NCBI RefSeq assembly: GCF_003568865.1
Contig: NZ_CP031115.1
Coordinates: forward strand, 2,604,001-2,668,000
Reading direction: 5' to 3'
Origin: Rubrobacter indicoceani
GTDB taxonomy: Bacteria > Actinomycetota > Rubrobacteria > Rubrobacterales > Rubrobacteraceae
DNA: 64,000 nt
The translations under genes were made by a program, and so were the position numbers. Below, one piece after another: positions 184 through 38,378 of the stretch. The stretch's first letter is position 1. Every line of letters starts with the position of its first letter. Under the pieces are notes generated by a model. That model did no database searches and was not told where the DNA came from. It saw only the letters and a program-made list of their open reading frames with translations.

Positions 184-722
184 CGCACGTCCCCCTTCGC
201 CGGTCTGACGAACGGTGGTCTGCCGTAGGCTTTCCTTATCTGAGAAGCCATCTCGTAGACCTCACCGATGGAGCATTCCTCGGGAGCTTCGGCGAAGGCG
301 AGCGAGAGATCCCAGACCGGGCTAATTCCTTTCAGCACGTCCTGATCTTCGCCAAGATAAAAGAGTTTGGCTCGGGTGAAGCAGATGATGTTCTGGACAC
401 GCTTTGAACCCGAGCCCAGCTTTGCATCAACATCGTCACAGAGCTCCGAGGCCTGATCTCTGGGATCATCCTTGAAGCACCGATGGTTCAGGTAGAGAGT
501 CCCGTATTCGTCCGCAGTAACCTCTCCTTCCTCGTCCCGAACGACGATCACACACGCCCCCGAAGGTCCAATCGCGAGGAAGTCGATCATCCCGGCCTCC
601 TCGGTTATTAGCTCGTCGAATACATAGAAACCGTGCGCCGCAGAAGACCTCAGAGCCGCCCGTACCAGCTCCCACCTCTCGGAGCGGGCGATCCTCTCGT
701 CCTTTGTCTTTTTCGCACTCAA
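180..722 (-). CDS. NERD-domain (nuclease-related) protein
   Basis: 180 aa. Residues about 25-110 match the NERD pattern: an N-terminal Glu-containing helix, IDFLAIGPSGACVIVVRDEEG (an Asp in the first strand and acidic residues where the family has an E-x-K-type motif), then a DDPRDQASELCDDVD segment equivalent to the family's 'NPLxQA' helix. NERD proteins are predicted members of the PD-(D/E)XK-like nuclease group, often plasmid-borne. The Lys of the usual ETK motif is replaced here (VVRDEE), so catalytic activity is uncertain. The start overlaps the end of the TrbL-like gene by 4 nt (ATGA), and the stop overlaps the next GTG. It belongs to the transfer operon; its role there is unknown. Confidence 0.6.
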   Translation of the reverse strand: MSAKKTKDERIARSERWELVRAALRSSAAHGFYVFDELITEEAGMIDFLAIGPSGACVIVVRDEEGEVTADEYGTLYLNHRCFKDDPRDQASELCDDVDAKLGSGSKRVQNIICFTRAKLFYLGEDQDVLKGISPVWDLSLAFAEAPEECSIGEVYEMASQIRKAYGRPPFVRPAKGDVR

Positions 723-2497
723 TTCTCACGCACCGATGTCTCTGACTTCCAATCGTTCAGACCCGGAGCTGTGGCATCTCTCTGTCGCTTCTGCATGAAC
801 CTTTCCCGGCTCTCATCTCCGTCCTCTCTCTGCTTCAGGTATTTGAGAGTGTTTTTGGAGAGGTTCTCAGCCCGTCGAGCCTGCTGCATCTGATGACGCA
901 AATGCTGCATTTTGAGGATCTCGTTGCGACCCTTACCGCCCACCGAGTTATCGGAACCCTTGCTAGTATCACGCGCACCGGATGAGGCTGCCGCTGCTCC
1001 GGCGATGCTTCCGCCCGCAGACGATCCGCTCATCGCTCCCTTGACGGCGGTTGCGATAGCGGTCTTGGCCGGAACCATAACGGCGAGCGTAGTCGCGGCC
1101 TTCGCAAGCCCTCCGAGACCTCCCCGCCCCGGTAGCTGGACGTTGAAGGCCCACTCCACGACCTTGAACGGTGTCTTGTACATGATCCACATTGTAACTA
1201 TCGCACCTATCGAAACCACCGCTCCGCTTGAGATAAAGCCCAGCGCGTCGGCCTGATCTCCGAAGATAGCCTCCGGTGAGCGCACGACAAGCGTACCTAT
1301 GCCGAGTTCTATAGACCAGAGGGCCGGGATCGCCGCGCAGGCAAGAACACCCCTGAACCACGATCCGGCGAGCGATGAGAGTCCGGGTACGAGCGACGCC
1401 ACGAGGGCAAACGGTCCGGCGATGAAGAGGATCACGTACAGAATGTTCTTCAGCAGAGAGACGATCAGCACCAGCCCACCAACCCAAACCGCTGCAATCA
1501 GGAGAACGATGTTGAAGACGTTCGCGATGGAGACTTGGTTTCCAACGGCGGCCTTGAACAGCTCCCTACCGGCGGAGTCCACATTCCCACCGCTCGGGGA
1601 GAACGCGCCGCTGATCCCGGCCGTTATGTCGGCGAACTCGCCCATAAACTGCGGTAGAAACGCCATCGCCATCCCGACGCCGAGCAGCTTCGGCAGACCG
1701 TGAAAGCCGGCGTAGGCGAGGTCGTAGCTGTCCCCGCGCACCATCAGGAGAATGCCCAGCAGGAGGATGCCGACGAGTATGGCGGGTCTGAGCTTCTCCA
1801 CCCCCTGTGTGTAGAGGCCGATGAGGTCGGAACGCCCCTGGAGATCCGGGAGCGCAAGGACGCTCGTCTCGAAGGCCTCGGACATCGTCTCCAAGGCAAA
1901 CCCGAAAGTGTTGTCCCAGAGCCACTCCAGTATGTCCGTGAAGAACCCGAGTACCATCCCACCGAGACCACCCGCGTCTGGAACCGTCTCGGGAGCTTCG
2001 GTCGGGCTTCCGGTCAGGCTCGTCGCGTCCTCCGCAGACTCCCCGGCGATACAGCCGTCGCCATCCCCGTCCACCCCGAACTGAGCGTCCTCCTCCCGCT
2101 CTCGCAGTTGCTCTTCGGCGCCCTCTGCCTCAAACTTTGCGGCGCAGTCTGGATCGTCACCGGGGGTTTCTTCTGAGGTAGTCTCATCCAGGTCGTTGCT
2201 CTGATCTCCTACGCCACCGGATTCGAGCGCGCCCGCTGCCGGGCCGTTCGAATCCTCAGCGGCGAACATACCGATGCAGCCGTCGCCGTCCACGTCGTTC
2301 GAGACCTGGGCTTCGTTGTCTTCCCGCGCCTGCTCCTCGGGTATCTGCTCTCCGTACCATGTCCGGCAAGCCTCATCGGCCGGGGTTGCCGCTGATGCAG
2401 ACGGTATGAAGACGAGCATTGCAAGCAGGACGGTGCAGGCTATCAGAGAGCGGGCGATCCGGACTGCGTGTCTCGGACTGGCTACAGGGGAGTCCAC
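719..2497 (-). CDS. TrbL/VirB6-like conjugal transfer membrane protein
   Basis: 592 aa with an N-terminal signal peptide (hydrophobic stretch about residues 15-36, ending ASA). An acidic extracellular segment carries two Asp-rich loops (DVDGDGC near residue 68 and VDGDGDGC near 141). These resemble excalibur-type or EF-hand-like calcium-binding motifs, and each is paired with nearby cysteines. Six or more transmembrane helices follow (about 180-465) in the arrangement of the TrbL/VirB6 inner-membrane channel subunit of type IV secretion systems. The C-terminal tail is Gly/Ser/Ala-rich, then basic and probably cytoplasmic. The start overlaps the preceding small membrane gene by 16 nt. It is probably the polytopic core of the mating channel. 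Family assignment rests on topology and operon context, because this family is poorly conserved in sequence. Confidence 0.65.
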   Translation of the reverse strand: MDSPVASPRHAVRIARSLIACTVLLAMLVFIPSASAATPADEACRTWYGEQIPEEQAREDNEAQVSNDVDGDGCIGMFAAEDSNGPAAGALESGGVGDQSNDLDETTSEETPGDDPDCAAKFEAEGAEEQLREREEDAQFGVDGDGDGCIAGESAEDATSLTGSPTEAPETVPDAGGLGGMVLGFFTDILEWLWDNTFGFALETMSEAFETSVLALPDLQGRSDLIGLYTQGVEKLRPAILVGILLLGILLMVRGDSYDLAYAGFHGLPKLLGVGMAMAFLPQFMGEFADITAGISGAFSPSGGNVDSAGRELFKAAVGNQVSIANVFNIVLLIAAVWVGGLVLIVSLLKNILYVILFIAGPFALVASLVPGLSSLAGSWFRGVLACAAIPALWSIELGIGTLVVRSPEAIFGDQADALGFISSGAVVSIGAIVTMWIMYKTPFKVVEWAFNVQLPGRGGLGGLAKAATTLAVMVPAKTAIATAVKGAMSGSSAGGSIAGAAAASSGARDTSKGSDNSVGGKGRNEILKMQHLRHQMQQARRAENLSKNTLKYLKQREDGDESRERFMQKRQRDATAPGLNDWKSETSVREN

Positions 2498-2714: not shown

Positions 2715-3494
2715 CTACCGTCCCTCCTCAGAGATCGCTTCAGACTCCTGCACTACCTCGGTGGCGCGCACCTTCCAGGACTCGCCCATACGGGTGAGGG
2801 TCATCTCCTGTCGGTAGTAGAGACGCTCGCCGACCAGATCCCCTCCGGAGCCGTAAGCCTCGCCGGTCTTAAAGGTCGCCGTCCCGCTTACCGTCTCCTG
2901 TGAGGTGCTTTCAAGGTCGAAGCTCGTTAGGATCGCCGCGCTCTTCGTGCCGCTCTCCTCGACCTGACGCGCGTAGCGGGATATCTCCGCACCCCCCGGC
3001 GAGAGTGAGAGATCCGGAGACAGCGACACGGCGGCCACTTCGGCCAGATACTCCGCCTCGTCAGAGCCGGTATAACCGTAGGCGGCTATGACGAACTTCT
3101 CTGCTGCGTAGCGAACCCTTGCCTCATCGGTTCGGGAGAGATCACCCACAGACGCTCCCGTGCCGAGTGGATCGTAGACCCCCGGTTCGTTCCCGGCCCC
3201 ACCCTCCCTGCTTTCCGGGCTCTCGACGGGTACGCCCTCGACCAGCTCATCCGGTTCTGCAGGCCTCTCCGGCTCCGTAGAGGCGTTACCCCGAGCGAAG
3301 GCCGGTTCTTCCGGGACGGTGGAGATGTCGGTGCGCTGGTGCTGTGCGGTCGCGTCCTGCGATGGGTTCGTGTTCCAGCCGAGGACGATTCCGACCCACC
3401 CGACGACGAGGATGGCTCCGGCGGCCAGCCATACGATCACCCGACGCTTGCCAGATGCATCGCGCCGCTCGAATCCTCTGTTTGGCAGGCTCAC
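2715..3494 (-). CDS. VirB8/TcpC-like bitopic transfer protein
   Basis: 259 aa. A short basic cytoplasmic N-terminus leads to one transmembrane helix (about 18-40), a Pro/Glu/Ser-rich linker (about 45-115) and a C-terminal globular domain (about 120-255). The C-terminal domain is an alpha helix followed by beta strands (a YRQEMTLTRMGESWKV segment), as in the NTF2-like fold of VirB8 and TcpC proteins. This topology is typical of Gram-positive VirB8 analogues, which bridge membrane channel and cell wall. The start overlaps the hydrolase gene by 4 nt (ATGA). The assignment is structural and contextual, as VirB8 analogues share little sequence. Confidence 0.5.
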   Translation of the reverse strand: MSLPNRGFERRDASGKRRVIVWLAAGAILVVGWVGIVLGWNTNPSQDATAQHQRTDISTVPEEPAFARGNASTEPERPAEPDELVEGVPVESPESREGGAGNEPGVYDPLGTGASVGDLSRTDEARVRYAAEKFVIAAYGYTGSDEAEYLAEVAAVSLSPDLSLSPGGAEISRYARQVEESGTKSAAILTSFDLESTSQETVSGTATFKTGEAYGSGGDLVGERLYYRQEMTLTRMGESWKVRATEVVQESEAISEEGR

Positions 3495-5860
3495 GGGCTT
3501 TGCCCCAGGTGGATGTGATCGTAGTGCGCTTCGGTGAACCCGATATCCGTGATGAACCCATCCTCGCGGTCGTAGCCGAGTTCGGCGGTCCAGTCGCTCG
3601 GGCCTATGACCTCGTCGGGCCTGCTTCCGACCGGGATGGAGTAGACGATCCTCCCGATGTCCAGGACATCCGGGTCGGTGCCGTTCCCAGCGACCGGCTT
3701 TCCGTCTACCTCCGAGATATCTGCGGTGAGACCGTAGTAGTGAGAGTTGTAGCCGCCACCGAGGCTTGCGGGGAGCGTCGCTCCGTAGGGGTGTCCGGTC
3801 TTGAAGACCGAGACGTAGATCTGATGCCGGGACGTGATCGCCTGCAGCACGGAAACAAGGTTATCGTCCACGACACCGCTTTCAAGATCCCCTATAGCAC
3901 TAGACGATGCCTCGAAGTTCGGGTCAGCAAGCAACTCCGCCGCTCTCCCGGAACCGAGGCTCGTTGGTGACGCCCCTTCACCATCTCCCGGAGAGTCCAC
4001 CGGGGTTCCCATCGTGGCGGCGTACGAGGGGCTTGCCACAAGACCGAGCGCGACGAAGGGCGTGCAATAGGACGGAAGTTCCGCCGCTGCGACCCCCGGT
4101 GCGGAGGGTGCGGCCTCGTTACCCGTCGCGATACCGCCGGATTCTCTTAACCATTCGAGCAGCGGGTACGGGTTCATCGCCCCTGAAGCGGCCTCCGCCC
4201 TTGCGCCCGAAGGGTCGTACCAGCCGAGGTGGAGATGCTGTCCCCTCGACGCCGGCTGGAGTAGCGTACCCGGCGGCCCCTCCCCGGTGCTCCCGACACG
4301 ACCTATGACGTCTCCGGCCTCGACGGTCTCACCGGGGCTTACGGGTGAGGGTTCGACTTGGTGGGCGTAGTAGAGCATATCCCCGGCCCGTACTGGACCT
4401 ACGGACTCCGAAGCCTCGACCATGGTCGTCCAGCCGCCGAGTTCGTTCCAGCCCTGAGAATCCGAACCGGAGGACGCTACGACGGTGCCGGAGGTGATCG
4501 AGTATATGGGCGTCCCGTCCGGCGCGAACATGTCCGTCCCCTCGTGTCCGCCGTGTCCACGTGCCGCTCCCCAGGTGTCCTCGTAGGAATCCATGAACTC
4601 TTTCGGCAGCGGAAACACCGCTTTCTCGTTCCCCTGAACCGAGCCGCCTTCTGTCTCAGAAGTTCCAGAAGACTCGCCACCGGCTTCGGAGACCGGACGG
4701 GTCGTGTCGTCTGGATCGGAGCCGAAGTTCGTCGCCCAGAACTCGCCGTAGCTCGTCTGCGGGTTCTCGACGAGGCCGATGCCGATGACGTTCATCCCGA
4801 CGTTGAGCATCATCGCGTTATGCGGCGGCGAGTTTCTCCAGGCTTCGAAGACCTCCTCCGCACTCTCCTGCCCGGCGGCGATGTTCTCACCGTAGCTTGA
4901 TGCGCTGTAGCCTTCGGTGTTCATCCTTGTTACGAGATCCGCGCCTTCCGGGTAGTAGTCCGAAGGCCCGGTTATGTGAGCCTCCGGGACACCGTAGGAG
5001 TCGTACTTAGCCATGTCGTGGGCGTAGTAGGCGGAGGCTGATGAGATCCTGTCCGAGAGCTGTAGCTCTCCGAGACCGTTGTTTTTGCGATAGGTGTTTA
5101 TGAGATCCAACGCTCCAAGCTCTTCCTCCGAATAAACGGTCTCGCCGGGGTTTCCGACCGTCCCGGCTTCGGTGGCGTAGGCGGGCGTCAGACCGAGTCC
5201 GACGGTCGGTATCGTCGCGGGGGTCGCTGCCATCTCAGCCTCGCCTTCGTCTGCGGCCCGGTACTCTTCGGCCTGAGCGAGAACGTCGTCCACGTACCAC
5301 TGGGCATGGTTGTAGGCGAAGAGCGCGGACTGGTAATCCTCGGGTGCGCCTTCGAGCTTCAGGTAGTTGGCGGCCCCGGGTATTGCGTCTTCCGGGTCGT
5401 AGCGATCCTTTACTCCGTCGCCGTTTCCGTCCACCCCCACCGAGGCCCACGTCGAGGCGAGGAACTGCATCGGACCCCCGGCACCCCAGGAGTTCTCTCC
5501 GCTCGTTACCCCCGGCGCGTCGAGGCGGCCGTGATCCGTCTCTATCTTCCCGACCGCCGCAAGAACCGCCCAGTCCAGCCCGTACTCCCCGGCGGCACTC
5601 CGGTAGATGGAGAGATAGTCCGAAGGGATATCCGAGACAGCCTCCCCCGATGGCTCCTGCGAGACATACGAGGTCGGGGAAGACGGCGGTACACCCTGTT
5701 CGGACTCCCGCTGGCAGACCGTCGCCACCGCCCCGACAGAACTCACCAGCGTTATCACGACGATCGCAAGAGACAGGAGAACCCCGGCGATGATCGCAAG
5801 CAGCATCCGGCGCCCGCGACGGCTCCCGAGGATCACGGCTCCAACCTTCAGCGCAGGCAA
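3491..5860 (-). CDS. Four-domain cell-wall hydrolase (SLT, CAP, M23, M15-like)
   Basis: 789 aa. A membrane anchor (about 20-47) is followed by four recognisable domains. A lytic-transglycosylase fold spans about 85-200, with the catalytic-type Glu at 107 and GAGGPMQFLASTW. A CAP/SCP domain spans about 245-380, with HITGPS, GENIAAG and WRNSPPHN. An M23 endopeptidase domain spans about 415-560, with H439-x3-D443 and H542-L-H544. A C-terminal domain (about 640-789) has the SHxxGxxxD and HYDHIHLG signatures of M15/VanY-like peptidases (H707, D714, H782, H784). Conjugation systems of Gram-positive bacteria use such enzymes (VirB1/TraG/CwlT type) to open peptidoglycan for the channel, usually with two domains. 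It overlaps the VirB8-like gene (ATGA). Confidence 0.8.
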   Translation of the reverse strand: MPALKVGAVILGSRRGRRMLLAIIAGVLLSLAIVVITLVSSVGAVATVCQRESEQGVPPSSPTSYVSQEPSGEAVSDIPSDYLSIYRSAAGEYGLDWAVLAAVGKIETDHGRLDAPGVTSGENSWGAGGPMQFLASTWASVGVDGNGDGVKDRYDPEDAIPGAANYLKLEGAPEDYQSALFAYNHAQWYVDDVLAQAEEYRAADEGEAEMAATPATIPTVGLGLTPAYATEAGTVGNPGETVYSEEELGALDLINTYRKNNGLGELQLSDRISSASAYYAHDMAKYDSYGVPEAHITGPSDYYPEGADLVTRMNTEGYSASSYGENIAAGQESAEEVFEAWRNSPPHNAMMLNVGMNVIGIGLVENPQTSYGEFWATNFGSDPDDTTRPVSEAGGESSGTSETEGGSVQGNEKAVFPLPKEFMDSYEDTWGAARGHGGHEGTDMFAPDGTPIYSITSGTVVASSGSDSQGWNELGGWTTMVEASESVGPVRAGDMLYYAHQVEPSPVSPGETVEAGDVIGRVGSTGEGPPGTLLQPASRGQHLHLGWYDPSGARAEAASGAMNPYPLLEWLRESGGIATGNEAAPSAPGVAAAELPSYCTPFVALGLVASPSYAATMGTPVDSPGDGEGASPTSLGSGRAAELLADPNFEASSSAIGDLESGVVDDNLVSVLQAITSRHQIYVSVFKTGHPYGATLPASLGGGYNSHYYGLTADISEVDGKPVAGNGTDPDVLDIGRIVYSIPVGSRPDEVIGPSDWTAELGYDREDGFITDIGFTEAHYDHIHLGQSP

Positions 5861-5934: not shown

Positions 5935-7218
5935 CTACCTTGGCCCAGAGCGACGTGATAGCGAGTAGTGAACGCCCCATAGCCCGGCGGCGAGCGACAG
6001 CAGACCGGTGGATAGCATGAGCAACTCGGAAACGGACAGACCGCCCGTGTCAGGAAGAACCGCCACCGGGCCATCATGAGTCTCGACGGTCGGCAGCGTA
6101 CCGCTCTCAGATGCAGGCCCGGACAGTACGTACGTCTCGGTCAATGGTTCGCCGGGCGTAGAACCTTCCATCTCGGAAGGTGGATAGACGCTCGGCGTGA
6201 TCCCGCCAGGTTCGGGTGATGTGGCCTCTCCCTGCGGTGTCGTCTGCTCTACGACAGGCATCTCCGGGGCAAGAGTCGTTTCTTCTGGAGACGGGATCTC
6301 CGTTTCGGGTGTGGTCGCCTCTGTGTCCTCTACATACTGGGTGGTTACCGGAGCGTCGTCGGCAGAAGTACTTTCTGTAATTTCCGGGATCGTCTCCTCG
6401 GTCTGTTCCGTGTCGGTGTATTGATCCTCTGCGATGCTTTGTTCAGAGTTTAGAACGACACTTTCCAGACATTCGACGTAGGAGTCATTCTGTGGAATCG
6501 TTAGAACCTCTGCGTATCCGCCTTCGATCAGTTCGAGGTTGAACAGTCGGGGTTGTGCGTTAGGGCTATCCATGCCTGCGATCCGCATTAGACTGGATAC
6601 CAGCCCTGTGTTCTCAGAAGGTCTATCTTCGGCTTCGATCCAGACGTAGGCGAGCAGCCTTCCGTAATCGTCTTTCAGCACCTCGTCCGTCTCCAGCATC
6701 ACCTGTTTGCCTTCGAGGTTTTCAGTGGTGAAGCGAGTTGCTTCCTCGGCTCCGAGTTCCGACTCTGCCACGCTGTCAGTTTCCAGCTCCGGTGCATCAA
6801 CACCGATCATACGAACGGTATCGGCTCCAGCGATCGGCTCGGCCAACTGCAGCGTATCCCCGTCGACTACCCGCTCTACCGTTGCCCGGTGAACGTCACC
6901 GCCCGGCGATGAGGGACACACCGCCTCGCCTCCCAGAAAGGACGTCTCCTCGGTCGTATTCTCCGTCAAACTCGAAGTGTCCTCGACCAGAGTGGTCTCG
7001 GCGGTTGTCTCATCGGACGAAGGCGCGAGAGTACCTTCGTTGTCGCGTTCTTTGCAATGGCCAGCAACGACGTCTCCCGCACGGGCGCATCCGTTTCCGG
7101 CGTAGACACCGCCGATCCTGACCTCGGCTTCCGCTGAGGGGATTGGGAGCAAGAAGACCGCCAGAGCTGGAAACACCCAGAACAAAACGGGTTTTCTAAG
7201 GCTTCTAAAGGTATTCAT
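5935..7218 (-). CDS. LPDTG-anchored staphylococcal-type (thermonuclease) surface nuclease
   Basis: 427 aa. A signal peptide (about 1-31) is followed by a Cys-containing region, an SNase domain at about 110-255 and a Thr/Glu/Pro-rich stalk (about 260-385). The protein ends in a sorting signal: LPDTG at 388-392, a hydrophobic helix, then an Arg-rich tail. SNase signatures are visible: DGDT (D119, D121), the Arg at 136, VDAPE (D141, E144) and DYGRLLAYVW (R187), the set expected for Ca-dependent phosphodiester cleavage. Its ATG overlaps the stop of the 715-aa gene. It should be sortase-anchored outside the cell, inside a transfer operon. Possible roles are degradation of extracellular DNA, cell aggregation or biofilm control, or exclusion; all are inference. 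Confidence 0.75.
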   Translation of the reverse strand: MNTFRSLRKPVLFWVFPALAVFLLPIPSAEAEVRIGGVYAGNGCARAGDVVAGHCKERDNEGTLAPSSDETTAETTLVEDTSSLTENTTEETSFLGGEAVCPSSPGGDVHRATVERVVDGDTLQLAEPIAGADTVRMIGVDAPELETDSVAESELGAEEATRFTTENLEGKQVMLETDEVLKDDYGRLLAYVWIEAEDRPSENTGLVSSLMRIAGMDSPNAQPRLFNLELIEGGYAEVLTIPQNDSYVECLESVVLNSEQSIAEDQYTDTEQTEETIPEITESTSADDAPVTTQYVEDTEATTPETEIPSPEETTLAPEMPVVEQTTPQGEATSPEPGGITPSVYPPSEMEGSTPGEPLTETYVLSGPASESGTLPTVETHDGPVAVLPDTGGLSVSELLMLSTGLLSLAAGLWGVHYSLSRRSGPR

Positions 7219-9616: not shown

Positions 9617-10489
9617 CTACTGCCCTCCCTGCTGTTCTTGAAAATCCTGCTGGCTTCCGCTATCGAAACCCCGCCACCCGACAAGCAGCGGTACGAAGGT
9701 TCCGGGTTCCGCTTCGAAAGAGACCCGGTAGCTCTCCTTACCGGGGATGACGTACGTTCGGGTGATCCGCTCCGAGTTTCCGTCCCGCTCGTCGAGGTAG
9801 TAGGCGTAGCCGGAGAGTTCGCCGTTATCGAGGGCGTAGACAGTTCCGAGGGTCGTGTCCCCGATGCTCTCCGAGGTTTCCAGCGAGTGCGTGGTGACGT
9901 GGAGAACCTCGCCGCTTCGCTGGGCGATGGCGTACACTCCGGTCTCTATGCTGGACTGGCCGAGATCGAAGCCCCGCTCCAGTTGCGCGGCCGTCGGCCC
10001 TTCGAGCGTTACCGTCTCTCCGCCGCCCTCTTTATCAGAAACGATGCCGGACCATTCGAGACCCGCACCCTTCAGGGTGGCCTCACCGTCCTTGACTTCG
10101 AGGCCGTCGAAGGTCACATCGGAATCCCGGATCGCACCACTGGAGAAGGGATTTACTGCGCTCTTCGAGTTCGATTCGACTTCCTCTCTGACAGACGCCT
10201 GATCACTGGCCGGCTCTTCGAGAACCACGAACCAGAATGTCCCGAGTACGAATAGAGCAAGTACAGCCAGGACGAGCGGAGCAGGATTGTCCTTCAAGTT
10301 CTCGAAAAGCCTCCGATCGCTCGCCGTTCGGGTCTTCTCATCACCTGATATTCCGGGCTTCCGTGCTGCGGCAGGATCGGGACTCAACTGCTTCGTTCGC
10401 TCTCCTGCCGTCTTCGGTAGACCTGCCTTACCGTGCTTCTCCTCCTCGAACCAGGAGGGCAGCTTTTTCGTGCTTTTAGGCATCGTCAT
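9617..10489 (-). CDS. Single-pass membrane protein of the transfer operon, unknown
   Basis: 290 aa. A cytoplasmic, charged N-terminus (about 1-68) leads to one transmembrane helix (about 70-92), then an extracellular, beta-strand-rich domain (about 120-275). The start overlaps the VirB4-like gene by 14 nt. An in-frame ATG at 10483 has the better-spaced GGGCAGGG ribosome binding site and may be the true start. The layout (short cytoplasmic tail, one helix, outside domain) recalls periplasm-facing scaffold components such as VirB8, but the sequence is not one I recognise. Co-translation with the ATPase suggests a structural part of the secretion channel. Confidence 0.55.
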   Translation of the reverse strand: MTMPKSTKKLPSWFEEEKHGKAGLPKTAGERTKQLSPDPAAARKPGISGDEKTRTASDRRLFENLKDNPAPLVLAVLALFVLGTFWFVVLEEPASDQASVREEVESNSKSAVNPFSSGAIRDSDVTFDGLEVKDGEATLKGAGLEWSGIVSDKEGGGETVTLEGPTAAQLERGFDLGQSSIETGVYAIAQRSGEVLHVTTHSLETSESIGDTTLGTVYALDNGELSGYAYYLDERDGNSERITRTYVIPGKESYRVSFEAEPGTFVPLLVGWRGFDSGSQQDFQEQQGGQ

Positions 10490-13400
10490 CGCCCTGCCCA
10501 GAGGTAGCGTTGGTAAGCGCGAGGGCGAGTTCTTTGAGGCCGCGATCCGGCGAGATATCCCCCGACGAAGATACAGAGAGACGGTGAATGGGTCGGGAGT
10601 GGGGTCTGCCCCGTCGCTCAGAGTCAGGCTCCCTACCGCCAGCCTTTGGACCGGAGACCGCGAGCAGCGTTCCGTTCTTTCCCCGGAGTTTCTCGGCAGT
10701 CAGGGCAGAGTGGAGTGCCTCGTCCTCGTCCGATGAGGAGCATCCGACAACGGCGTCAGCCCCGAGCAGCCAGTCCTCGGCGTAGAAGTTGCCCTGATCC
10801 GGCCCCGGACAGGCGACGATACAGACGTCGAAGATCTCAGACGCGGTCTCCTTCAGCGCGAAGGAAGGAAGCGACGAGTCCTTCGGCGGTTCTGCGCACC
10901 ACACAGAGGGCGAGGCGCTCCGCTTCAGGTACCCCCCGAGTGCCTCTGCATCAACCCGGTTCCCGTACAGGAACTCATCCAGGTGAGAGTCCGAGCGGTC
11001 TTCTTCGGCATCATGCGTAATGCCGAGGTTCTCCGAGAGCGCACCCTTGCAGGCATCTACGGCGAGGACGTGCTTCCCCTGACGGCGAGCCTCCCTGCCT
11101 AGCATCATTACCATCGCGGCGGCGGTCTCCGGTGCTGCGTCTCCAGAGAACGCGTAGGTCTGCATCCGTGTCTCTTGACTGACGGGTCCACTCGCCTGCT
11201 CGTCTATCGAATTACTGTCAAGTGGATTCGGGCCAGGCTGTTTATCCGCGTTGCGACCGCTTCGGTACTTGGCTTCGAGGCGCGGGTCGGTGTTGTAGAG
11301 TTCCTTCTCGGCTTCGGAGGCCATTACGACCATCGGGATGCGGGCCTGATCCACTATGAGGTAGCCCTCGCCGCGCTGAAAGTTGAGCAGTTCTTCGGTC
11401 TCCTCGTCGGAGAGATCGTGGACTGCTGCGGTGGCTCGGGCGGACATCTGGTGTTCGTGGCGGAAGATCATGTGCGTAGCGGCGAGTTTGAGGATCACAT
11501 CCCCCTGCGAGCTACCAACGAACTCGTTTATCGCCTGCGACGCGAGCCACATGGCGTTGTCCCGCGCCCTCCCGCTCCTATACATCGTCTCCGCGAACTC
11601 CGCGCTCATCGGGTAGGCGAGCAAAGCCCAGCCCTCGTCTATCCAGCAGTCCGACGGCTCGTTCGGATTTGAGAGGACGCCGTTCAGGAACTCGAGTATG
11701 GCGTGCATCACCGGGGCCTTCTGGCGGTTCTTTACCTTGGATATCTGGAAGACGAGGTAACGGTTCGTAAGGTCAACGTTCGTCGGAGCGTCGAAGATCT
11801 TCGACAGCGCGCCGGAATGCCAGCTCCAGAGCTTCTCCAGAAGCCCCGCAACTATCTTGTTCTCCTTTGCGTAGCCGTTCAGGATATCCCAGAATTCCGG
11901 GAAGATCGGAGCCGGGCGCGAGTGCGTCGTCGGGTCTGCCGTGATACCCCGCCTCTCGTACGCCTCGTAGACCGCCCGCTCGATGAAGCTCGCCTCGCCC
12001 CCGGACAGCCCGCCGACCGCTCCGCCCGCTGCACCAGATTCATCTGTCGCGGCCATGAGCGAGACCATGCGCGTGATCTCCTGCGCTTTACCATCGAGTG
12101 CCGAAGAACGAGCCGCACGATACGCTTCCTCGGCCTCCGCACCCTCCGTCTCGTCCTCATCGCCGAAGATGTCTTCGAGAAGGTCGAGGTTCATGTAGTC
12201 TTCGTGGAGATCGAAGGGGTTGATCTTATGCTTCGAACCGGGTGCAATGACCGCGTAAGCTCCACCGATAGCCCTCGCCACCCGTACGTAGCGGCTGTTC
12301 CCCTCCGGGTCTATGACGACCTGACGATGCCCGGCCATCAGGTAGCGTGTAGAGAGGCACTTGATGACAAAGCTCTTCCCCGCCCCCGACTGACCGAGGA
12401 TGACACCGTGCGGGTTCACGAGCCTGCGCGTATCCAGCGTCATCACGGCGTTGGAGCGGGCATCTACCCCGACGAAGACCCCGTCTTCGTGATCTAGCTG
12501 CTGGCCGCCATAGGTGAGGAGACACGCGGTCGGGCGGCTGAGCATCCCGAAGGAGCAGTACCGTTCTGCGAGGTAGTTGCGCCCGAACGGAAGCGAAGAG
12601 AGAAGCCCCTCCCAGGTCTGTTCACGGGCGAGTTTGGTCTCGACCCGCCAGCCGGCGAGGATGTCCTGAACTTCGCGGGACATCGCGTAGAGGTCGTCGA
12701 GCGATTCGGCTTCGAGGTGGACGAGGACGGAGAGTTCGAGATAGCGTTGCCTGCCGGAGTTGATCTCGTGCAGAGCCTGCTCGTTGGTGTACTCCGCTAT
12801 CTCCCGCTGCTGCTCGGAGTTGACGTTGCCGTCTGCGGCGGTACGGCGTGAGGCCCGGAGCGCGGCGACCCGACCGCCGAGGATCGTCTGCGCCTCCTTC
12901 TTCGGGCGCGGCTCGATGTACTTGACGACCTTGACCCGGCCTTCGATGCGACCGAGGTCTGAGAGCATCCCGAAAAAGACCTCGTCCGGCCAGCCGGAGA
13001 CGAACAGCGTCGTGTGAAACCGTCCGTCCACTTCGAGGTGATCGGGGGCGATCCTGACGCAGTCCGGGGCGATAGCATCGGTAACCCAGTCCCCTATACC
13101 GAGCGCGTTCGGCCCAGCCTCCCTGTGAGACTCGGCCTCCAAAACCAGCTTCTCACGCTTCTTCTCTGAGAGCCTCTCGTAGCCGCCCGGCTCCAGCGAG
13201 ACGGGGGAATAGAGGTTCGGGAGAGCGTCGGAATCCTCGTCGAAGTCTCCGAGCTGGCTCCTGATGAAAGCGTCGAGTTCGAGGTCGGTGAGGGCTTCGA
13301 TGCGGCAGCCGAGCCGGGACATCAGGTTGTGAAACGATCGTGCGCGGGTCAGGAGTACCCGGCGGGCGGCTTCGGCTTCCTCCTGTCTCCGGCGAGCGTC

Positions 13401-14243
13401 CTTCCTGGACGGACGACCACCGATACCACCCGTCTTGAGCAGGCCGGACAGCATTCCGACGGGGCTGGACGCCCCGGACTTCCCTCCGGCACGCTCCTGC
13501 TCGGGGTTGTAGTACAGGACGGCATAGCCTTTACGCTCGAAGATGGAGAGGGCGGGGAGCTTTCGTTCGAGATAGGCGGCGTGATCGGCAGCGAAAGAGC
13601 GGAGCTTCCGCCATTCGGGTGGCACGTTCTCGGAGATAGTCCTTCGGAAGCGTCTTGCGTAGCGAGCGGTGGAGCCGGGCTTTGAGCGGGCGATCTCGAC
13701 CCACGGGAAGTCCAGCGCGTTGTACAGATCCGTCGCCGCCCGGAAGACCCGCATCCTCTCGGTGTCCCCGATCATGGACAGGTTGCGCGGTATCACCCGG
13801 AACACAACGACGTACGTTCCGCCGCGGAGCCGGAGCATCTCCCAGTGAAACTCCTCGGTCGGGAGCAGGGTCTGTATCGCATCCCGCATCGAGGCAGGCT
13901 CACCGCTCGCATGGTTCTTGGCTCGCTTGAAGAACACGACCGGACGCAGCAGCGCGAGGAACTTTCGCTCGACAAGGAAGTCCAGATGGTAGCCACCCGG
14001 TGAGCGGTAGAAGGCGAAGAGGATCGCCAGCGGGGCAATCGGCGAGAGGAGGATCGCGGCCCGCTCGGTCGAGAGACCGAAGAAACCCGCGAGGTAGTAG
14101 CAGAAGACGGCGTATCCGACCAGCGTTGCAGCGAGGATCGCAGCCTGGTTGGTCTCGACAGCGATGCCCGCGAGCTTCGTCGTCTTTCTGGCTCCGGCGA
14201 GATCCTTGACTACGGCTTCGCGCACGGGATCATCCCGCCCCAC
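10476..14243 (-). CDS. VirB4-type conjugation ATPase fused to a degenerate MinD/ParA-like domain
   Basis: 1255 aa. The N-terminus has two membrane helices (about 32-75), like the PrgI/VirB3-type segment often joined to Gram-positive VirB4. A long VirB4 region follows, with Walker A GQSGAGKS near residue 617, Walker B CWIDEG near 868 and the ASQAINEF motif after it. Residues about 1027-1255 form an extra domain patterned on MinD/ParA ATPases: an initial strand, a helix, GKHVLAVDACKGALSENLGI, later EIFDVCIVACPGP and LLGADAVV. Its P-loop is replaced by FSGDAAPET, so it should not bind nucleotide in the usual way. VirB4 powers pilus assembly and substrate translocation at the membrane. It overlaps the pilin gene by 14 nt. 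Confidence 0.85.
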   Translation of the reverse strand: MGRDDPVREAVVKDLAGARKTTKLAGIAVETNQAAILAATLVGYAVFCYYLAGFFGLSTERAAILLSPIAPLAILFAFYRSPGGYHLDFLVERKFLALLRPVVFFKRAKNHASGEPASMRDAIQTLLPTEEFHWEMLRLRGGTYVVVFRVIPRNLSMIGDTERMRVFRAATDLYNALDFPWVEIARSKPGSTARYARRFRRTISENVPPEWRKLRSFAADHAAYLERKLPALSIFERKGYAVLYYNPEQERAGGKSGASSPVGMLSGLLKTGGIGGRPSRKDARRRQEEAEAARRVLLTRARSFHNLMSRLGCRIEALTDLELDAFIRSQLGDFDEDSDALPNLYSPVSLEPGGYERLSEKKREKLVLEAESHREAGPNALGIGDWVTDAIAPDCVRIAPDHLEVDGRFHTTLFVSGWPDEVFFGMLSDLGRIEGRVKVVKYIEPRPKKEAQTILGGRVAALRASRRTAADGNVNSEQQREIAEYTNEQALHEINSGRQRYLELSVLVHLEAESLDDLYAMSREVQDILAGWRVETKLAREQTWEGLLSSLPFGRNYLAERYCSFGMLSRPTACLLTYGGQQLDHEDGVFVGVDARSNAVMTLDTRRLVNPHGVILGQSGAGKSFVIKCLSTRYLMAGHRQVVIDPEGNSRYVRVARAIGGAYAVIAPGSKHKINPFDLHEDYMNLDLLEDIFGDEDETEGAEAEEAYRAARSSALDGKAQEITRMVSLMAATDESGAAGGAVGGLSGGEASFIERAVYEAYERRGITADPTTHSRPAPIFPEFWDILNGYAKENKIVAGLLEKLWSWHSGALSKIFDAPTNVDLTNRYLVFQISKVKNRQKAPVMHAILEFLNGVLSNPNEPSDCWIDEGWALLAYPMSAEFAETMYRSGRARDNAMWLASQAINEFVGSSQGDVILKLAATHMIFRHEHQMSARATAAVHDLSDEETEELLNFQRGEGYLIVDQARIPMVVMASEAEKELYNTDPRLEAKYRSGRNADKQPGPNPLDSNSIDEQASGPVSQETRMQTYAFSGDAAPETAAAMVMMLGREARRQGKHVLAVDACKGALSENLGITHDAEEDRSDSHLDEFLYGNRVDAEALGGYLKRSASPSVWCAEPPKDSSLPSFALKETASEIFDVCIVACPGPDQGNFYAEDWLLGADAVVGCSSSDEDEALHSALTAEKLRGKNGTLLAVSGPKAGGREPDSERRGRPHSRPIHRLSVSSSGDISPDRGLKELALALTNATSGQGDDDA

Positions 14244-14622
14244 CGGCGAGACCGGCAGCGATGGAGAGGATCGGGGTTACGATCACCCCGGCGACGATGC
14301 ACCAGAGCGAACCCTTCATCCCCATCGCAGCGTAGGCGTGGGCGTTCTCGTTGATCGAGGCGTATCCCTTCACAAGGAGCGACGCTACGAACCCGATCCC
14401 ACCAACAGAGAACGACAGCGCGGCGAGATAGTTCCTTACGTTGGTGAGAGTCTGCTGTATAGCATCTCCGCCACCCCCAGCGTCCTGAGCAAACGCCGGA
14501 GTTGTACCGGCGAGCAGCACGATCAGTCCAACGGACGCAGCGAATACTCCGTGCCGCAACAGAGCACAGATCACAGATCGTCTGCCTGACGTATCTCTGT
14601 CTTGCGAACTTTCGTTTACCAT
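14230..14622 (-). CDS. VirB2/TrbC-like pilin subunit
   Basis: 130 aa from the ATG at 14622, chosen because AGGAGG lies 6-7 nt upstream and it avoids overlap with the VirD4 gene. An upstream ATG (14715) would add 31 polar residues inside that gene. A signal peptide with Ala-x-Ala-type ending (TPAFA, about 40-45) is followed by a small Gly-rich segment and two hydrophobic helices (about 60-85 and 100-125). This is the classic VirB2/TrbC prepilin layout. Its location between the coupling protein and the VirB4 ATPase fits the usual order of type IV secretion loci. The stop region overlaps the VirB4 start by 14 nt. Confidence 0.65.
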   Translation of the reverse strand: MVNESSQDRDTSGRRSVICALLRHGVFAASVGLIVLLAGTTPAFAQDAGGGGDAIQQTLTNVRNYLAALSFSVGGIGFVASLLVKGYASINENAHAYAAMGMKGSLWCIVAGVIVTPILSIAAGLAGGAG

Positions 14623-14653
14623 CTCCGTCCTCCTGTCTGTGGAGCTACTGGAA

Positions 14654-16303
14654 TCACGCGACTTCTTCCTGTTCGCTGTGAGTTTCTGAGACGTCATCCG
14701 TTTCGCGGGCAGCAAACTCTTCGCGGTACTTTTTCGGGGGTGTCGGTGCGCGTCCGGCCTTCACCGGAACCGGCCTCTGCTGCTTGCCTCGGCGAACCCG
14801 CGAGCAGTGCCACCATCCGCGCGGCAGGTAGACGAGATCCTCCTCGCTAACCCTCGGTACGGTCTGACTTCTGCGCCCGACGGAGAAGGAACCCGGCCCT
14901 CCGAGCAGTCCTTTGCGGGTCGTTCGGTAGTCGCGCACCTCGCGCTCGGTCTGCCCGAGCAGCCGCATCGCCTCCGCAGCATCATCGCCCTGCTGCCCAC
15001 CCGAGATGAGCTTGTTCCGGGCGTTCGTCGCAAGGGCTTCTTTGAGGGGGCTCGGTAGCAGCGAGAAAGACTGGTAGGCGAAGTTGAAGGCCACGTGCCG
15101 CCGCCTCGACTGCGTGATGAGCGACGAGAAGGCGAGGGCCGCTTCTGAGTTGGCGTGGCCTAACATGCTGTGAACCTCGTCTAGGTAGGCGGAGACGGGA
15201 TAGCCGCCATCGGGACGGGCGAGGACGGCCTGGCGGAAGTACTCCATGACCCAGGTAGAGAGCATCCGGCTCGTCGCCGGGGCTGCTCCCTGCGGGACGC
15301 TCACGAGCGTCAGTCCCGGAGAGGTCAGGGCTTCCGTCAGGTCGAGGACGGGATCTCCTGCCTTTGGAGACAGGGCGACCTCGACGATCTCCTGTGCGAG
15401 CAGAGCGTCCATGACGGCGTGGAGTCCGGCGACGAACTGGGTACGTTCCCGCTGTCCGTACTGACCGTAGTAGAGATCCTCCCAGTAACCATGTGTCCTG
15501 CGCGGAAGCCCCTTCGCGTTCACGGTGAACCTGCGACCCTGAGAGTCCCGCTCGACGCCGAGTACCTTCCTGCGGAAGCTCTCGTTCTGGACGAAGCGGT
15601 CGAGATCGGACATCGTCGCTACCCGATCCCTGCGCTCGAAGTAGGTGCATACCGCGAGCACGGAGTGCCGAAGGAACATGGAGTTGAAGTTCTCGAAGAA
15701 CTTCTCGTCACCCGAGGCCGCAGCCGACTGGAATGCCGTAACAGCACGCTCGGCGGCGTCCACCTTATCTCCCGAGAGGGGATTCCATTTCATGGTGGAG
15801 CCATCGTTTGCTCCCGAGTAAGTGAAGTAGCGGATCGGGACGCCGAGCCAGCGGGCAAGCGGGAGTAGCTTTTTGCCAAGATCCCCCTCGGTCTCGACCA
15901 CGAAGACAGAGAGACCGTTCCTCAAGTCCTGATAGGCGAGCCACTCCATCGTAGAAGTCTTCGCCTGTCCCATCGGGGCAACCATCTGAAGCCCGGTAAA
16001 CCTGTCCGAGAGCGGCAGGTAGAGCGGGACTCGACCGAAGGCACCGAGGGTGCGGTAGCCGATCATCACCTCCCCTGGTCGTCTGAAGAGTGCATCGTGG
16101 ACGCGGCGAACAAACGGCCCGGTAGCGTGATGCGCTCCCACAAAGCCCGCACCGCAGGCGAAGAGTCCGGCGGTTCCGAGAGCAAGGTTGACCGGGTTCT
16201 GCGCTGCACCGAGCAGCTCCGGCCCGCTGTCTCTGAGGCTCGCCCCAAGCTCGTAGAAGAATCCGGTCTCAGCGGGAACGCGGTTCATTTCAGGGGGGAT
16301 CAC
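14654..16303 (-). CDS. VirD4/TraG-type coupling protein
   Basis: 549 aa. An N-terminal membrane segment (about 36-58) leads to an FtsK/VirD4-like ATPase. The P-loop is APMGQAKTS (109-117): Lys115 and Thr116 are kept, but two glycines of the consensus GxxGxGKT are replaced by Ala. Walker B is SAYLDEVHSM (D375, E376), followed by ITQSRRRHVAFNFAYQS, equivalent to the family's sensor region. The tail (about 500-549) is charged. Coupling proteins bring the relaxase-DNA substrate to the channel. The GTG start overlaps the stop of a small upstream ORF. The pilin gene follows after 31 nt. No relaxase is visible beside it. Confidence 0.8.
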   Translation of the reverse strand: MIPPEMNRVPAETGFFYELGASLRDSGPELLGAAQNPVNLALGTAGLFACGAGFVGAHHATGPFVRRVHDALFRRPGEVMIGYRTLGAFGRVPLYLPLSDRFTGLQMVAPMGQAKTSTMEWLAYQDLRNGLSVFVVETEGDLGKKLLPLARWLGVPIRYFTYSGANDGSTMKWNPLSGDKVDAAERAVTAFQSAAASGDEKFFENFNSMFLRHSVLAVCTYFERRDRVATMSDLDRFVQNESFRRKVLGVERDSQGRRFTVNAKGLPRRTHGYWEDLYYGQYGQRERTQFVAGLHAVMDALLAQEIVEVALSPKAGDPVLDLTEALTSPGLTLVSVPQGAAPATSRMLSTWVMEYFRQAVLARPDGGYPVSAYLDEVHSMLGHANSEAALAFSSLITQSRRRHVAFNFAYQSFSLLPSPLKEALATNARNKLISGGQQGDDAAEAMRLLGQTEREVRDYRTTRKGLLGGPGSFSVGRRSQTVPRVSEEDLVYLPRGWWHCSRVRRGKQQRPVPVKAGRAPTPPKKYREEFAARETDDVSETHSEQEEVA

Positions 16304-21271: not shown

Positions 21272-22012
21272 TTACAGATCTTCAAGAGACAGGATGAAGC
21301 GTGCCCTCCCCTTGATCGAAGCAACGAACCGCTCGAAAGTCATGTCGAGGGCGGGCTGGACAACCTGAGACTCAGGCTCTTTTGAGGAGACAACGTAGCA
21401 GGTAGCGTCGTAGAGTTCCTCCAGATAGAGTCGCCGACAGAAAAGCTCGGATCTCTTTTGATAGGAAGCTTCGTCAAAAAGGGGATCTACCGGGAAGGCT
21501 GGGGAGGTTCTCTGGCGAGTAGGGTTCCTTGATTTCTGTTCGTCGGCGATCATAAAGAAGTAGCCGAGCCAGGGCTTCGTGGGACCGAGAAGTTGCTCCC
21601 GAAAGGCGGTTCTTACGTCTTCAGCGCTTCCCACCGCCTCCTCTATTCTGTTGTTCATGTTGTTTCCGAATGAGCTTGCAATGGATTTCAGCTCCACGGC
21701 GGCAACAAGGTTTTCATTATGTACGACGAGTAAATCCCACTCCTTTGTCGGCCGGTAGTAGCCGGGAAGGTCGAGACCGGAATGCATCCGAATAGATTCT
21801 TCAGGGAATCCCTCGTCGGCAAAGACCTGCGCTATAAGCCGGGTGAGGGATTTCATCTGCTGTCCGCCGGTCACGTCGGCCCGGCCTCCGACGTCCACGA
21901 CACCTCGATCTTCCTGACGACGTCTCTGCCCAGCCCTAACTCTCCAATAGTCCTTTACCGACTCTTCAAACTCCACCTTGTATGACACGTATAGTTTTCC
22001 TCTCCTGCTCAT
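21272..22012 (-). CDS. XhoI/PaeR7I-family type II restriction endonuclease (copy A)
   Basis: 246 aa. The core closely follows the PaeR7I/XhoI family: GGRADVTGGQQM, LPGYYRPTKEWDLLVV, AAVELKS, FGNNMNNRIEEAVGSAEDV and KPWLGYFFM. D93, E107 and K109 fit a PD-(D/E)XK active site. Family members cut CTCGAG; this is expected here but not shown. It lies 58 nt downstream of a second, divergent family member and shares the same methyltransferase gene. The GG-x-T-GG segment before the core, typical of PaeR7I, is present in this copy and absent from copy B. Confidence 0.85.
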   Translation of the reverse strand: MSRRGKLYVSYKVEFEESVKDYWRVRAGQRRRQEDRGVVDVGGRADVTGGQQMKSLTRLIAQVFADEGFPEESIRMHSGLDLPGYYRPTKEWDLLVVHNENLVAAVELKSIASSFGNNMNNRIEEAVGSAEDVRTAFREQLLGPTKPWLGYFFMIADEQKSRNPTRQRTSPAFPVDPLFDEASYQKRSELFCRRLYLEELYDATCYVVSSKEPESQVVQPALDMTFERFVASIKGRARFILSLEDL

Positions 22013-22070
22013 CGGCTTAAGATCAACTCTACGAATGAGTGGTCTTTGAATTATCTTTAGAAAACCGAAC

Positions 22071-22823
22071 TTAAGGCCCGGTTGACGGCCGGCTACTTGC
22101 TCGGTCCTTGACCTTGTTCACAAACTGCTCGAACCCAAGCTTAGGATCCGGCTCTTCGACAAGCGGCTCATTACCGATCTCCTTTACAACGAGCAGACAT
22201 GCCGCGTCATAGAGCTGGTGGGGCTTGCTCTGAATCAACCGTTTACAAAGGATCGCGTATCTTTTCAGATAGCTGGCGTCCTCAAACTCTTTGTCCCAGC
22301 CAAGCTTCTTGTTTGAGCTGAAGAGCGTCCGCTTCGGTTTACGAATCTTGTATAACTCTTCTGTACCTTGAAGGATCACCATGTAGCCGAGCCAAGGCTC
22401 GGTAGGTTCGAGCAATTTCTGACTGTACGCAGAGCGGAGATCGAAGGCGCTCCCGAGGGCTTCTTCAACGCGGTTGTTGACATTTTTTGCCGCAGATGTA
22501 GATACAGACTTGAACTCTACAGCTGCTACAAGGTTATCGTCCTCGAACGCAACGAGGTCCCAGTCTTTCGTTACCCGGTAATATCCCGGTAGAGTTAGCC
22601 TAGCACCGCTACGCTCCCGCAGCCGCTTCTCACCTTCTTCGGCCGACCTCGTGAGCACGTTTTCTTCGTTGAACCCAGCCTCTACAAATATTTCCCTTAC
22701 GAGATCACCTACGGCCCGTAGGTGTCTGTCTGCTCGGACGCTCTGTTCGCTGCTATAAACTTTCTTCAGTGCCTCTTCGAGCCTTTCACTGTAAGAACCG
22801 CTCTCGGACTTACGACCCGGCAC
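22071..22823 (-). CDS. XhoI/PaeR7I-family type II restriction endonuclease (copy B)
   Basis: 250 aa. The same family core is visible: LPGYYRVTKDWDLVAF, AAVEFKS, KNVNNRVEEALGSAFDLRSAY and EPWLGYMVI, with D89, E103 and K105 as the probable catalytic set. It differs from copy A in the N-terminal third and has an insertion near 65-75 (EKRLRERSG) and another near 155-180, so the two are old paralogues rather than a recent duplication. Its GTG is one nt after the methyltransferase stop, with AAGGTG upstream, so they are co-translated. Confidence 0.8.
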   Translation of the reverse strand: MPGRKSESGSYSERLEEALKKVYSSEQSVRADRHLRAVGDLVREIFVEAGFNEENVLTRSAEEGEKRLRERSGARLTLPGYYRVTKDWDLVAFEDDNLVAAVEFKSVSTSAAKNVNNRVEEALGSAFDLRSAYSQKLLEPTEPWLGYMVILQGTEELYKIRKPKRTLFSSNKKLGWDKEFEDASYLKRYAILCKRLIQSKPHQLYDAACLLVVKEIGNEPLVEEPDPKLGFEQFVNKVKDRASSRPSTGP

Positions 22824-22824
22824 G

Positions 22825-27600: not shown

Positions 27601-27683
27601 AACGACTCGGGGGTGTGCACGTGGAGGTCCCACTTACACCAAGTCGATCCTCCCGGGTACGCTAAAGTCGATGTCTCCTTCAT
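24606..27683 (-). CDS. TrlF-like PHP-domain/SMC-type ATPase
   Basis: 1025 aa. The N-terminal PHP metallo-phosphoesterase domain has KWDLHVHTPES (H21, H23) and LLLDCSDAHRF near 265. A P-loop GNKGSGKSALVDVL (about 363-376) opens an SMC/Rad50-like ATPase. A long coiled coil (about 480-760) follows. The distal half has the ABC signature LSPGERGTLLLL near 898, Walker B PLVIDQPDENLDN near 917 and a Thr-His-Asn H-loop near 953. This layout matches TrlF-type AAA-like ATPases, which are common in defence islands. A nuclease controlled by DNA-dependent ATP hydrolysis is a fair model, not proven. Codon use is more GC-rich than the next genes to the right, which suggests separate acquisition. Confidence 0.75.
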   Translation of the reverse strand: MKETSTLAYPGGSTWCKWDLHVHTPESLVQDYGGSNKAVWEKFLQDLESLPPEFKVLGINDYIFLDGYKKVLKEKRQGRLENIELLLPVVELRLDKFGGTESGLSRVNYHVIFSDEVDADTIEHHLINTLSNSFRLAPDHASLARKWNSNITRKSLEELGKLITESTPKEKRGGNLSPLHVGFSNLTFKLEDIRERLDFHHFEGRHLTAVGKTEWANIKWNSHAADKKDVINAADLVFVASKTPGEWKSAKDSLRQAGVNDLLLDCSDAHRFSSAFTQKDRIGNCHTWIKAAPTFEGLLHALEEPDERIFVGEEPLKVGIVRKNATKYVQSVSIGKVASSSLDERWFDDRIEFNADFVAIIGNKGSGKSALVDVLGLLGDTKQADAFSFLKKDKFKEPKDNKAEHFEATLTWKSGKQVTKRLDDEVDGYAVESIKYIPQSYLETICNEVARGEGKKFREELESVIFSHVGDADRLDTQSLGELLDYKTHETHEAMDALAGELSSLNVRIVALEKRSTEDYRKNLERRLDAKREELAAHEEAKPREVPRPGTNPESQEREADVSDELERAKLERQLWVELIAAEQAELKRLTRLLSASEKAISGVENIRHRYLTAEAELSEGLNELGIETGEVVELKVDLTPLEEARKLYELLRDRSDELLDADNLDGHAERLGSAEEDILALQAQLDTLGKEHEAYLSALEAWNVRRQELVGSEDTIGSLKHTERLVSDLKEVPQRLQDAYRLRRKKAAEIHREITRLADIYRDLYDPVQRFIEGHPLAEGKFDLNFEVSIAEEGFENRFFDQINRGKSGSFWGPDGGSLLAEILDKYDFQDEASMLEFLDDVVGHLRCDKRAGNGGQIEVSEQLKQGYSPQSLYDYVFSLDYLKPRYSLRMGDKELSQLSPGERGTLLLLFYLLIDKEDGPLVIDQPDENLDNQTISELLVPCIREAKKHRQLFLVTHNPNIAVVGDAEQIVWASIDRKGGNSITYTSGPLEDFDINETAVNVLEGTMPAFDNRRSKYRTKRAE

Positions 27684-32193: not shown

Positions 32194-32384
32194 CAATTGC
32201 TACATTCTTGACTAATCCGCTCCTCGAAGCAGGGCTGCTCCAGATAAGATTAAATCAACGTGGTTATGTAGATAGAGCAACGTGCTTCCGTAAATACAAA
32301 TCCACTAGCTCGCTCTTTGAGGACAGTATCGAAATATCTAAATTGCGATCTAAAGAGTTCAACTCATACACCGACAACTGAGCT

Positions 32385-34367: not shown

Positions 34368-34406
34368 CCTTCAAACTACCCGTCGTTGCGTTCCATGGGC
34401 GCTCGA

Positions 34407-34934: not shown

Positions 34935-34943
34935 CCGGGCAGC

Positions 34944-36126: not shown

Positions 36127-36145
36127 GTTGTTGCAACCTCCTCTC

Positions 36146-36168
36146 TAATGTTCTACAATCGAACATTA
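36146..36168. promoter_or_regulatory. Inverted repeat between the XRE/ImmA/PIN operon and the Qat operon
   Basis: TAATGTTC, 7 nt, GAACATTA: a perfect 8-bp inverted repeat. A further half site GTTC lies near 36191-36194. The spacer contains TACAAT (36154-36159), a good -10 box for rightward (Qat) transcription. A repressor bound here could control both operons. Confidence 0.6.
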
Positions 36169-36211
36169 TTAGTATACCAATAAACTTAGTGTTCTAAACG
36201 GAGGTATGAGC

Positions 36212-36382: not shown

Positions 36383-36386
36383 CGGC

Positions 36387-38375: not shown

Positions 38376-38378
38376 CTC

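Follow-up and report, generated by a model that had tools for sequence, protein, structure and literature searches.

The window analysed here is a 64,000-nucleotide stretch of the Rubrobacter indicoceani genome (positions 2604001-2668000 of contig 1, in a 3.08 Mb genome of three contigs), and it encodes a VirB4-family ATPase of a type IV secretion system (T4SS) whose C-terminal tail has the predicted fold of MinD and ParA but lacks their ATP-binding loop. This unannotated domain is missed by Pfam and NCBIfam, is present in every informative Rubrobacteraceae VirB4 examined, and is apparently an undescribed, constitutive part of the VirB4 proteins of this family; no description of a VirB4-MinD fusion or of a Rubrobacter VirB4 tail was found in the open-licence literature. 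We propose, with the case about evenly balanced, that the tail is a MinD lobe without catalytic activity, joined covalently to VirB4, through which an active ParA/MinD/CpaE-type ATPase docks onto the hexamer. The gene and its parts are as follows.

10476..14243, minus strand: VirB4-family T4SS ATPase carrying the tail; GTG start, 1255 aa (open reading frame (ORF) and profile matches)
12372..12395, minus strand: intact Walker A GQSGAGKS of the VirB4 motor, residues 617-624 (sequence; AAA_10 match)
11166..11273, minus strand: unconserved linker, about residues 991-1026 (ratio of nonsynonymous to synonymous substitution rates, dN/dS, measured for residues 1001-1026)
10479..11165, minus strand: the tail, a degenerate MinD/ParA-fold domain, residues 1027-1255 (AlphaFold, Foldseek, VIA-align; profile comparison)
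11124..11150, minus strand: remnant of the Walker A region, FSGDAAPET, residues 1032-1040 (KGGxGK absent in all 11 domains aligned)
11052..11066, minus strand: LAVDA strand with the invariant Asp of the VDAD motif, residues 1060-1064 (alignment)
10800..10829, minus strand: Walker B equivalent DVCIVACPGP, Asp replaced by Ala, residues 1139-1148 (alignment)
10743..10784, minus strand: family signature YAxDWLLxADAVV, residues 1154-1167 (Tyr and Trp invariant in all nine rows of tail alignments A1 and A6)

The structure models place the tail in the MinD/ParA fold, as an earlier note on this DNA had proposed from the sequence for the last 229 residues of VirB4, with coordinates that proved right; the domain starts exactly at residue 1027, which is a Met. 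The alignment used for modelling the window tail contained five tails (those of the window and of loci L040, L041, L042 and L044). The AlphaFold2 model of the window tail has a mean predicted local distance difference test score (pLDDT) of 79.8, a predicted template modelling score (pTM) of 0.83 and a Rossmann-like alternation of strands and helices, and that of the tail from a Rubrobacter marinus plasmid has values of 76.0 and 0.79. In Foldseek searches the leading PDB matches are McdA, MinD, ParA-family proteins and CooC for the window model (best E 7.7e-7) and FleN, a Borrelia partition protein and MinD for the R. marinus model (best E 4.3e-7), and VIA-align ranks MinD first for the window tail (6riq_C, Z 17.5, root mean square deviation 3.1, 197 residues; 3q9l_A, Z 17.4). 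Structure prediction and Foldseek, the check that the earlier note had suggested, thus found a SIMIBI-type MinD/ParA fold, and the Foldseek matches of both tail models, with the VIA-align matches of the window tail, rule out a fold unrelated to SIMIBI NTPases. No TadZ structure is among the 50 matches listed per structural search, an absence that carries no weight. Searches with the tail sequence alone give nothing above noise in Pfam or NCBIfam, and nothing useful among PDB sequences, where the best match (E 0.13) is unrelated.

The active site is lost throughout. In a joint alignment of 11 tail-type domains, comprising nine VirB4 tails and the N-terminal domains of two tandem proteins described below, the deviant Walker A motif KGGxGK[ST] is missing from every domain, and where the Walker B Asp would stand each has Ala, Pro, Val or Cys; the first Asp of VDAD is retained in all 11. 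Positions A5, G8, V33, V36, D37, A38, D113, Y128, A129, W132, E158, G172 and L213 are invariant in the nine tails. Judged by its sequence, the tail is probably a pseudo-ATPase unable to bind ATP, in keeping with the earlier reading that its Walker A loop had gone, and the alternative of an active ATPase with an unusual loop is rejected on sequence and not biochemically.

The tail profile scores closer to CpaE-type ATPases and to the candidate partner ATPases described below than to Soj, Mrp and ArsA. When the profile of the nine tails is compared by hhalign with that of six ATPases, CpaE-like or partner-like, the probability is 97.4 (E 1.5e-11), a score inflated by CpaE rows chosen with the same profile. 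Scored singly against the tail profile, three CpaE-type proteins reach 48-51, two partner ATPases 37 and 28, and a bacterial tyrosine kinase (BY-kinase) and Soj 25; none of the six controls, which were unrelated or T4SS proteins, exceeds 17.1. The first rank of CpaE is partly due to selection, because the tail profile had served to find its rows, which does not apply to the active halves of the partner proteins. Model TIGR03815 matches one of nine members of the tail family (E 0.044, not significant).

The remainder of the protein is a VirB4 T4SS ATPase, with an AAA_10/TraG-type P-loop NTPase domain and its Walker A: residues 607-667 match AAA_10 (PF12846) at 46.2 bits (cut-off 27.5) and P-loop_TraG (PF19044) at 37.1 bits (cut-off 25.8) in Pfam. 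NCBIfam VirB4 models align partially, reaching about residue 972, and all score under their curated cut-offs; NF045971, the equivalog model for CD1110-type VirB4, gives 204.9 bits with a cut-off of 325, which is passed by none of 39 Rubrobacteraceae genomes. Codon-position GC is gene-like along the whole of virB4, tail included. At the N-terminus (window 13900-14243) the sequence reads as a PrgI-like pair of hydrophobic segments, although the window VirB4 has no Pfam PrgI match; in other actinobacterial and Firmicute plasmids PrgI is encoded by a separate upstream gene.

Searching the 39 Rubrobacteraceae genomes with NF045971 recovers 12 VirB4 genes in eight of them. The tail is present in every one of the ten that extend to the C-terminus, one of which is cut by a contig end after 25 tail residues; the other two stop earlier at contig edges. 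An oddity of a single genome is thereby ruled out. The relatives, which include R. marinus and R. tropicus, are from 94% down to 33% identical to the window VirB4 over the whole protein, and the fusion is therefore old within the family. A class-level scan matches six of 39 genomes, and a named-genome scan gives six loci that are Rubrobacteraceae without exception. With the tail profile, strong matches in a 396-genome sample of the phylum are confined to Rubrobacteraceae, with no tailed VirB4 outside; the four weak ones in other families (E 6e-6 to 5e-5) are ATPases of the CpaE/TadZ or Ssd type. A tblastn search of 72,556 plasmids with the R. marinus plasmid tail matches only two Rubrobacter plasmids, and a whole-protein profile finds no relative in viral contigs, the phage-record matches listed falling on the motor region. 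The earlier statement that no common VirB4 has such a tail stands outside Rubrobacteraceae, across these 396 genomes and 72,556 plasmids, and falls within the family, where the tail is an ordinary part of the VirB4 subfamily (10 of 10 informative proteins), an outcome that the earlier note had named as one that would refute its reading; the search for further VirB4-MinD fusions that it recommended likewise finds them in Rubrobacteraceae relatives and none beyond the family in the phylum and plasmid samples.

The tail is under purifying selection and the linker is not. Between the window and its relative G001, dN/dS is 0.27 in the tail (229 codons), 0.03 in the motor core, 0.14 in the N-terminal part and 1.6 in the linker (23 codons only), and three other pairs give 0.29-0.42 for the tail, values that are rough owing to high dS. 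In plasmid-type relatives the linkers before the tail are longer and of low complexity. Nine reading frames (the window and eight homologues) are open to the end of the tail, which together with purifying selection rules out a frameshift or read-through artefact. The tail could also be a slowly decaying remnant of a fusion, with no function of its own, as might fit its lost active site and its being the fastest-evolving part compared apart from the linker; we consider this very improbable, as dN/dS lies between 0.27 and 0.42 in four pairs, the frames are intact, the YA..W and VDA positions are invariant, and the tail is common to VirB4 proteins only about 35% identical overall.

A Met codon stands at the exact start of the dead domain in five of five chromosomal-type virB4 genes, with purine-rich DNA before it (window 11163-11180; L010-L013), and is either an internal start codon or what is left of the start of a formerly separate gene. 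If translation began there, a free dead domain would be made besides the fusion and mixed assemblies would result. This explanation, which has the position of the Met and the preceding purines in its favour, is scarcely credible to us, given that the plasmid-type genes have no such Met and that the codon may simply be the start of the ancestral separate gene.

An active relative of the dead domain adjoins a tailed virB4 gene or is itself fused to a dead domain in three genomes. On contig 7 of genome G004 a VirD4-like gene, two small genes and a tailed virB4 (1351 aa) lie on one strand and are followed, after a gap of 137 bp, by a gene whose 571-aa product combines about 300 low-complexity residues with an ATPase domain that has an intact P-loop, SPKGGVGKSS (Pfam CbiA 33.4 bits, cut-off 25.4; AAA_31 29.5 bits, cut-off 27). 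Over 255 aa this ATPase domain shares 57% identity with the C-terminal half of a protein of about 600 aa from an R. tropicus plasmid (genome G020), and G035 encodes a tandem protein of the same type (75% identical). The N-terminal half of both tandem proteins is a tail-like dead domain, matching profile A6, which includes these domains, with E 4.7e-56 and 4.4e-54, and profile A1, which was built without them, with E 6.1e-9 and 3.9e-10. Such fusion of a dead and an active domain is a classical sign of physical association and suggests that the two may pair. The partner family is found in three of 39 genomes, all among the eight with VirB4 (hypergeometric 0.006, with no correction for kinship or for plasmid carriage). 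On the R. tropicus plasmid (NZ_CP045120.1) the tandem protein is annotated as hypothetical (L038:7717-9522) and lies beside a PASTA Ser/Thr kinase; a Ser/Thr kinase-like ORF likewise precedes the tandem protein of G035. The tandem protein is the sole AAA_31 match on the R. tropicus plasmid, which has no ParB_N match.

In the arrangement that we propose, the tail would act as a docking lobe fused to the C-terminus of VirB4 through a floppy linker, so that a VirB4 hexamer would present six dead lobes. Each could pair with an ATP-bound MinD/ParA/CpaE-type ATPase much as two MinD or ParA subunits pair with each other, with ATP bound and hydrolysed only by the partner subunit, whose cycle would serve to recruit or position the motor, or deliver the DNA substrate to it, and might thereby couple secretion to DNA partition. 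The earlier note's suggestion that the tail might localise the secretion ATPase to a cell pole or link partition with transfer gains indirect support from the intact ATPase beside the tailed virB4 of G004 and from the dead and active fusions of two other genomes. The partner would be the ATPase encoded beside virB4 in G004, the tandem dead and active protein on the R. tropicus plasmid, and another ParA acting in trans in the window's genome. Possible trans partners there, judging from their sequences, are a chromosomal ParA, Mrp, a BY-kinase, an ArsA-type protein and two plasmid ParA-like proteins; there is no CpaE or MinD among the candidate ATPases read in this host. A more specific version, which we regard as unlikely, is that the six lobes form a ring of dead CpaE/MinD domains, each an obligate one-sided heterodimer with a mobile ParA/MinD/CpaE ATPase whose nucleotide state sets when and where the DNA secretion motor assembles.

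Several observations weigh against docking. The ATPase adjoins a tailed virB4 in only one of nine neighbourhoods, that of G004 (the others are the window, two in G035, G001, and the chromosome and plasmid of both G020 and G023), and about 55 kb separates the tandem gene from virB4 on the R. tropicus plasmid. The dedicated partner family is absent from the window's genome and from 35 of the other 38 genomes of the family, G001 among them, and the window contains no CbiA or AAA_31 match. Co-occurrence of the ATPase with VirB4 could reflect kinship, or the fact that both are plasmid genes, and the CpaE rows used for comparison had been retrieved with the tail profile itself. The tail changes faster than the motor (43% as against 84% identity between the window and G023), so that its surface is loosely constrained. 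The proposal draws on sequence and predicted structure, and the physical interaction in it is putative.

The disparity between a tail in all ten informative VirB4 proteins and a dedicated ATPase family in only three of 39 genomes would be accounted for if the dead domain worked in cis, packing onto the VirB4 hexamer or the downstream membrane protein and needing no ParA partner to regulate how the motor assembles or hydrolyses ATP; VirB4 motors work as oligomers, which also fits. However, an unconstrained and often long linker suits a tethered lobe better than a rigid regulator, and dead and active domains are found fused to each other in the tandem proteins. A purely cis role is, in our judgement, rather unlikely.

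Among the genes near virB4 the hydrolase domains are clear and the VirD4, pilin and VirB6 assignments are weak, falling under the Pfam cut-offs.

14654..16303, minus strand: VirD4/TraG-like coupling protein (PF12696, 21.9 bits, just under the cut-off of 22)
14230..14715, minus strand: VirB2/TrbC-like pilin candidate (PF04956, E 0.0018; PF18895, E 0.0044; both below cut-off)
9617..10489, minus strand: product of the next gene downstream of virB4, with a single apparent hydrophobic segment (no family; G004 has the MinD-like ATPase here)
3491..5860, minus strand: cell-wall hydrolase with SLT (transglycosylase), CAP and M23 (peptidase) domains in one protein (Pfam, clear)
719..2497, minus strand: TrbL/VirB6-like membrane protein (PF04610, 23.2 bits, below the cut-off of 25.9)

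A similar gene order is annotated in two Rubrobacter plasmids; relatives carry TraM-recognition and T4SS DNA-binding annotations at the VirD4-like position, and R. tropicus has a protein annotated as pilin at the position of the pilin candidate. The T4SS operon also contains an SNase-type nuclease (window 5935-7218) ending in LPDTG, a hydrophobic segment and a basic tail, as in a sortase-anchored nuclease. To the left of the window a gene for a Replic_Relax-family protein (contig 1, 2600551-2601315) adjoins an 881-aa frame with a weak DNA-primase match, and the T4SS element may for this reason extend past the window.

A relaxase-type gene so close to the window bears on a further explanation, that the tail is a ParA-derived, VirC1-like adaptor binding DNA, the relaxosome or a Replic_Relax-type relaxase. 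DNA binding by ParA normally requires ATP, which the tail should not bind, and we think this explanation quite unlikely. It does have parallels in other systems, in which ParA-family proteins connect the relaxosome with the channel (PMC4949242; PMC8716806).

Elsewhere in the window, two adjacent XhoI-type endonuclease genes lie by an Eco57I-like methylase (21272-24531) and are followed by an SMC/AAA protein (24606-27683). Its cluster of genes makes the region at 28252-45302 look like a defence island: two SIR2-like proteins, a CoiA-like nuclease, a KAP NTPase and a TatD DNase are encoded there, together with a weak OLD-like TOPRIM match.

Loose contacts between proteins are the usual answer to two open questions, namely what guides a secretion motor to its site and what brings a conjugation machine together with its DNA. 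With a dead domain on the motor, and an active copy that is adjacent in one relative and fused to a dead domain in two, it becomes possible to ask with just two pieces whether ParA/MinD cycling steers a T4SS. Among known systems, the motor region aligns with the CD1110-type VirB4 of Firmicute and actinobacterial plasmids (NF045971, 205 bits), whereas the window protein stays under the model cut-off of 325 and the three related plasmid VirB4 proteins inspected, from Embleya, Miltoncostaea and Aneurinibacillus (643, 661 and 641 aa), have a separate upstream PrgI gene and no tail. The tail shares the fold of MinD, ParA and McdA (MinD, Z 17.5; McdA, Foldseek E 7.7e-7) but is without their KGGxGK and Walker B Asp. 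VirC1 of Agrobacterium, the gonococcal T4SS ParA/ParB and ParM of R1, which is actin-like and not MinD-like, are also partition-type proteins that work with a T4SS, but they are free, active proteins and not dead domains fused to VirB4. TraC, which is VirB4-like, is bound by ParM, and VirC1, a ParA-like protein, takes the relaxosome to the T4SS (PMC4949242); gonococcal ParA/ParB bind the relaxase (PMC8716806). Agrobacterium VirB4 carries polar targeting regions of its own (PMC4234268), so a pole-seeking tail is not required of VirB4 proteins generally.

The closest parallel is CpaE/TadZ, which has a MinD-like fold, ranks nearest in sequence profile among those compared (in part because its rows were chosen with that profile), and is likewise tied to a hexameric secretion motor. 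It differs in being a separate protein that has a receiver domain, still binds ATP and dimerises, whereas the tail has neither receiver domain nor P-loop and is a covalent part of a T4SS motor; CpaE is recognised by a receiver-like domain and a Tad pilus locus, and the tail is instead preceded by VirB4 and a linker and has T4SS-type neighbours. The Eubacterium rectale homologue has a deviant Walker A, and CpaE dimers are modelled as forming a ring that surrounds the hexameric Tad motor CpaF (PMC13170226). On the more specific ring version of our proposal, which we have called unlikely, the Rubrobacteraceae VirB4 would link DNA positioning covalently to DNA export, in parallel to, but evolved separately from, the CpaE ring around CpaF.

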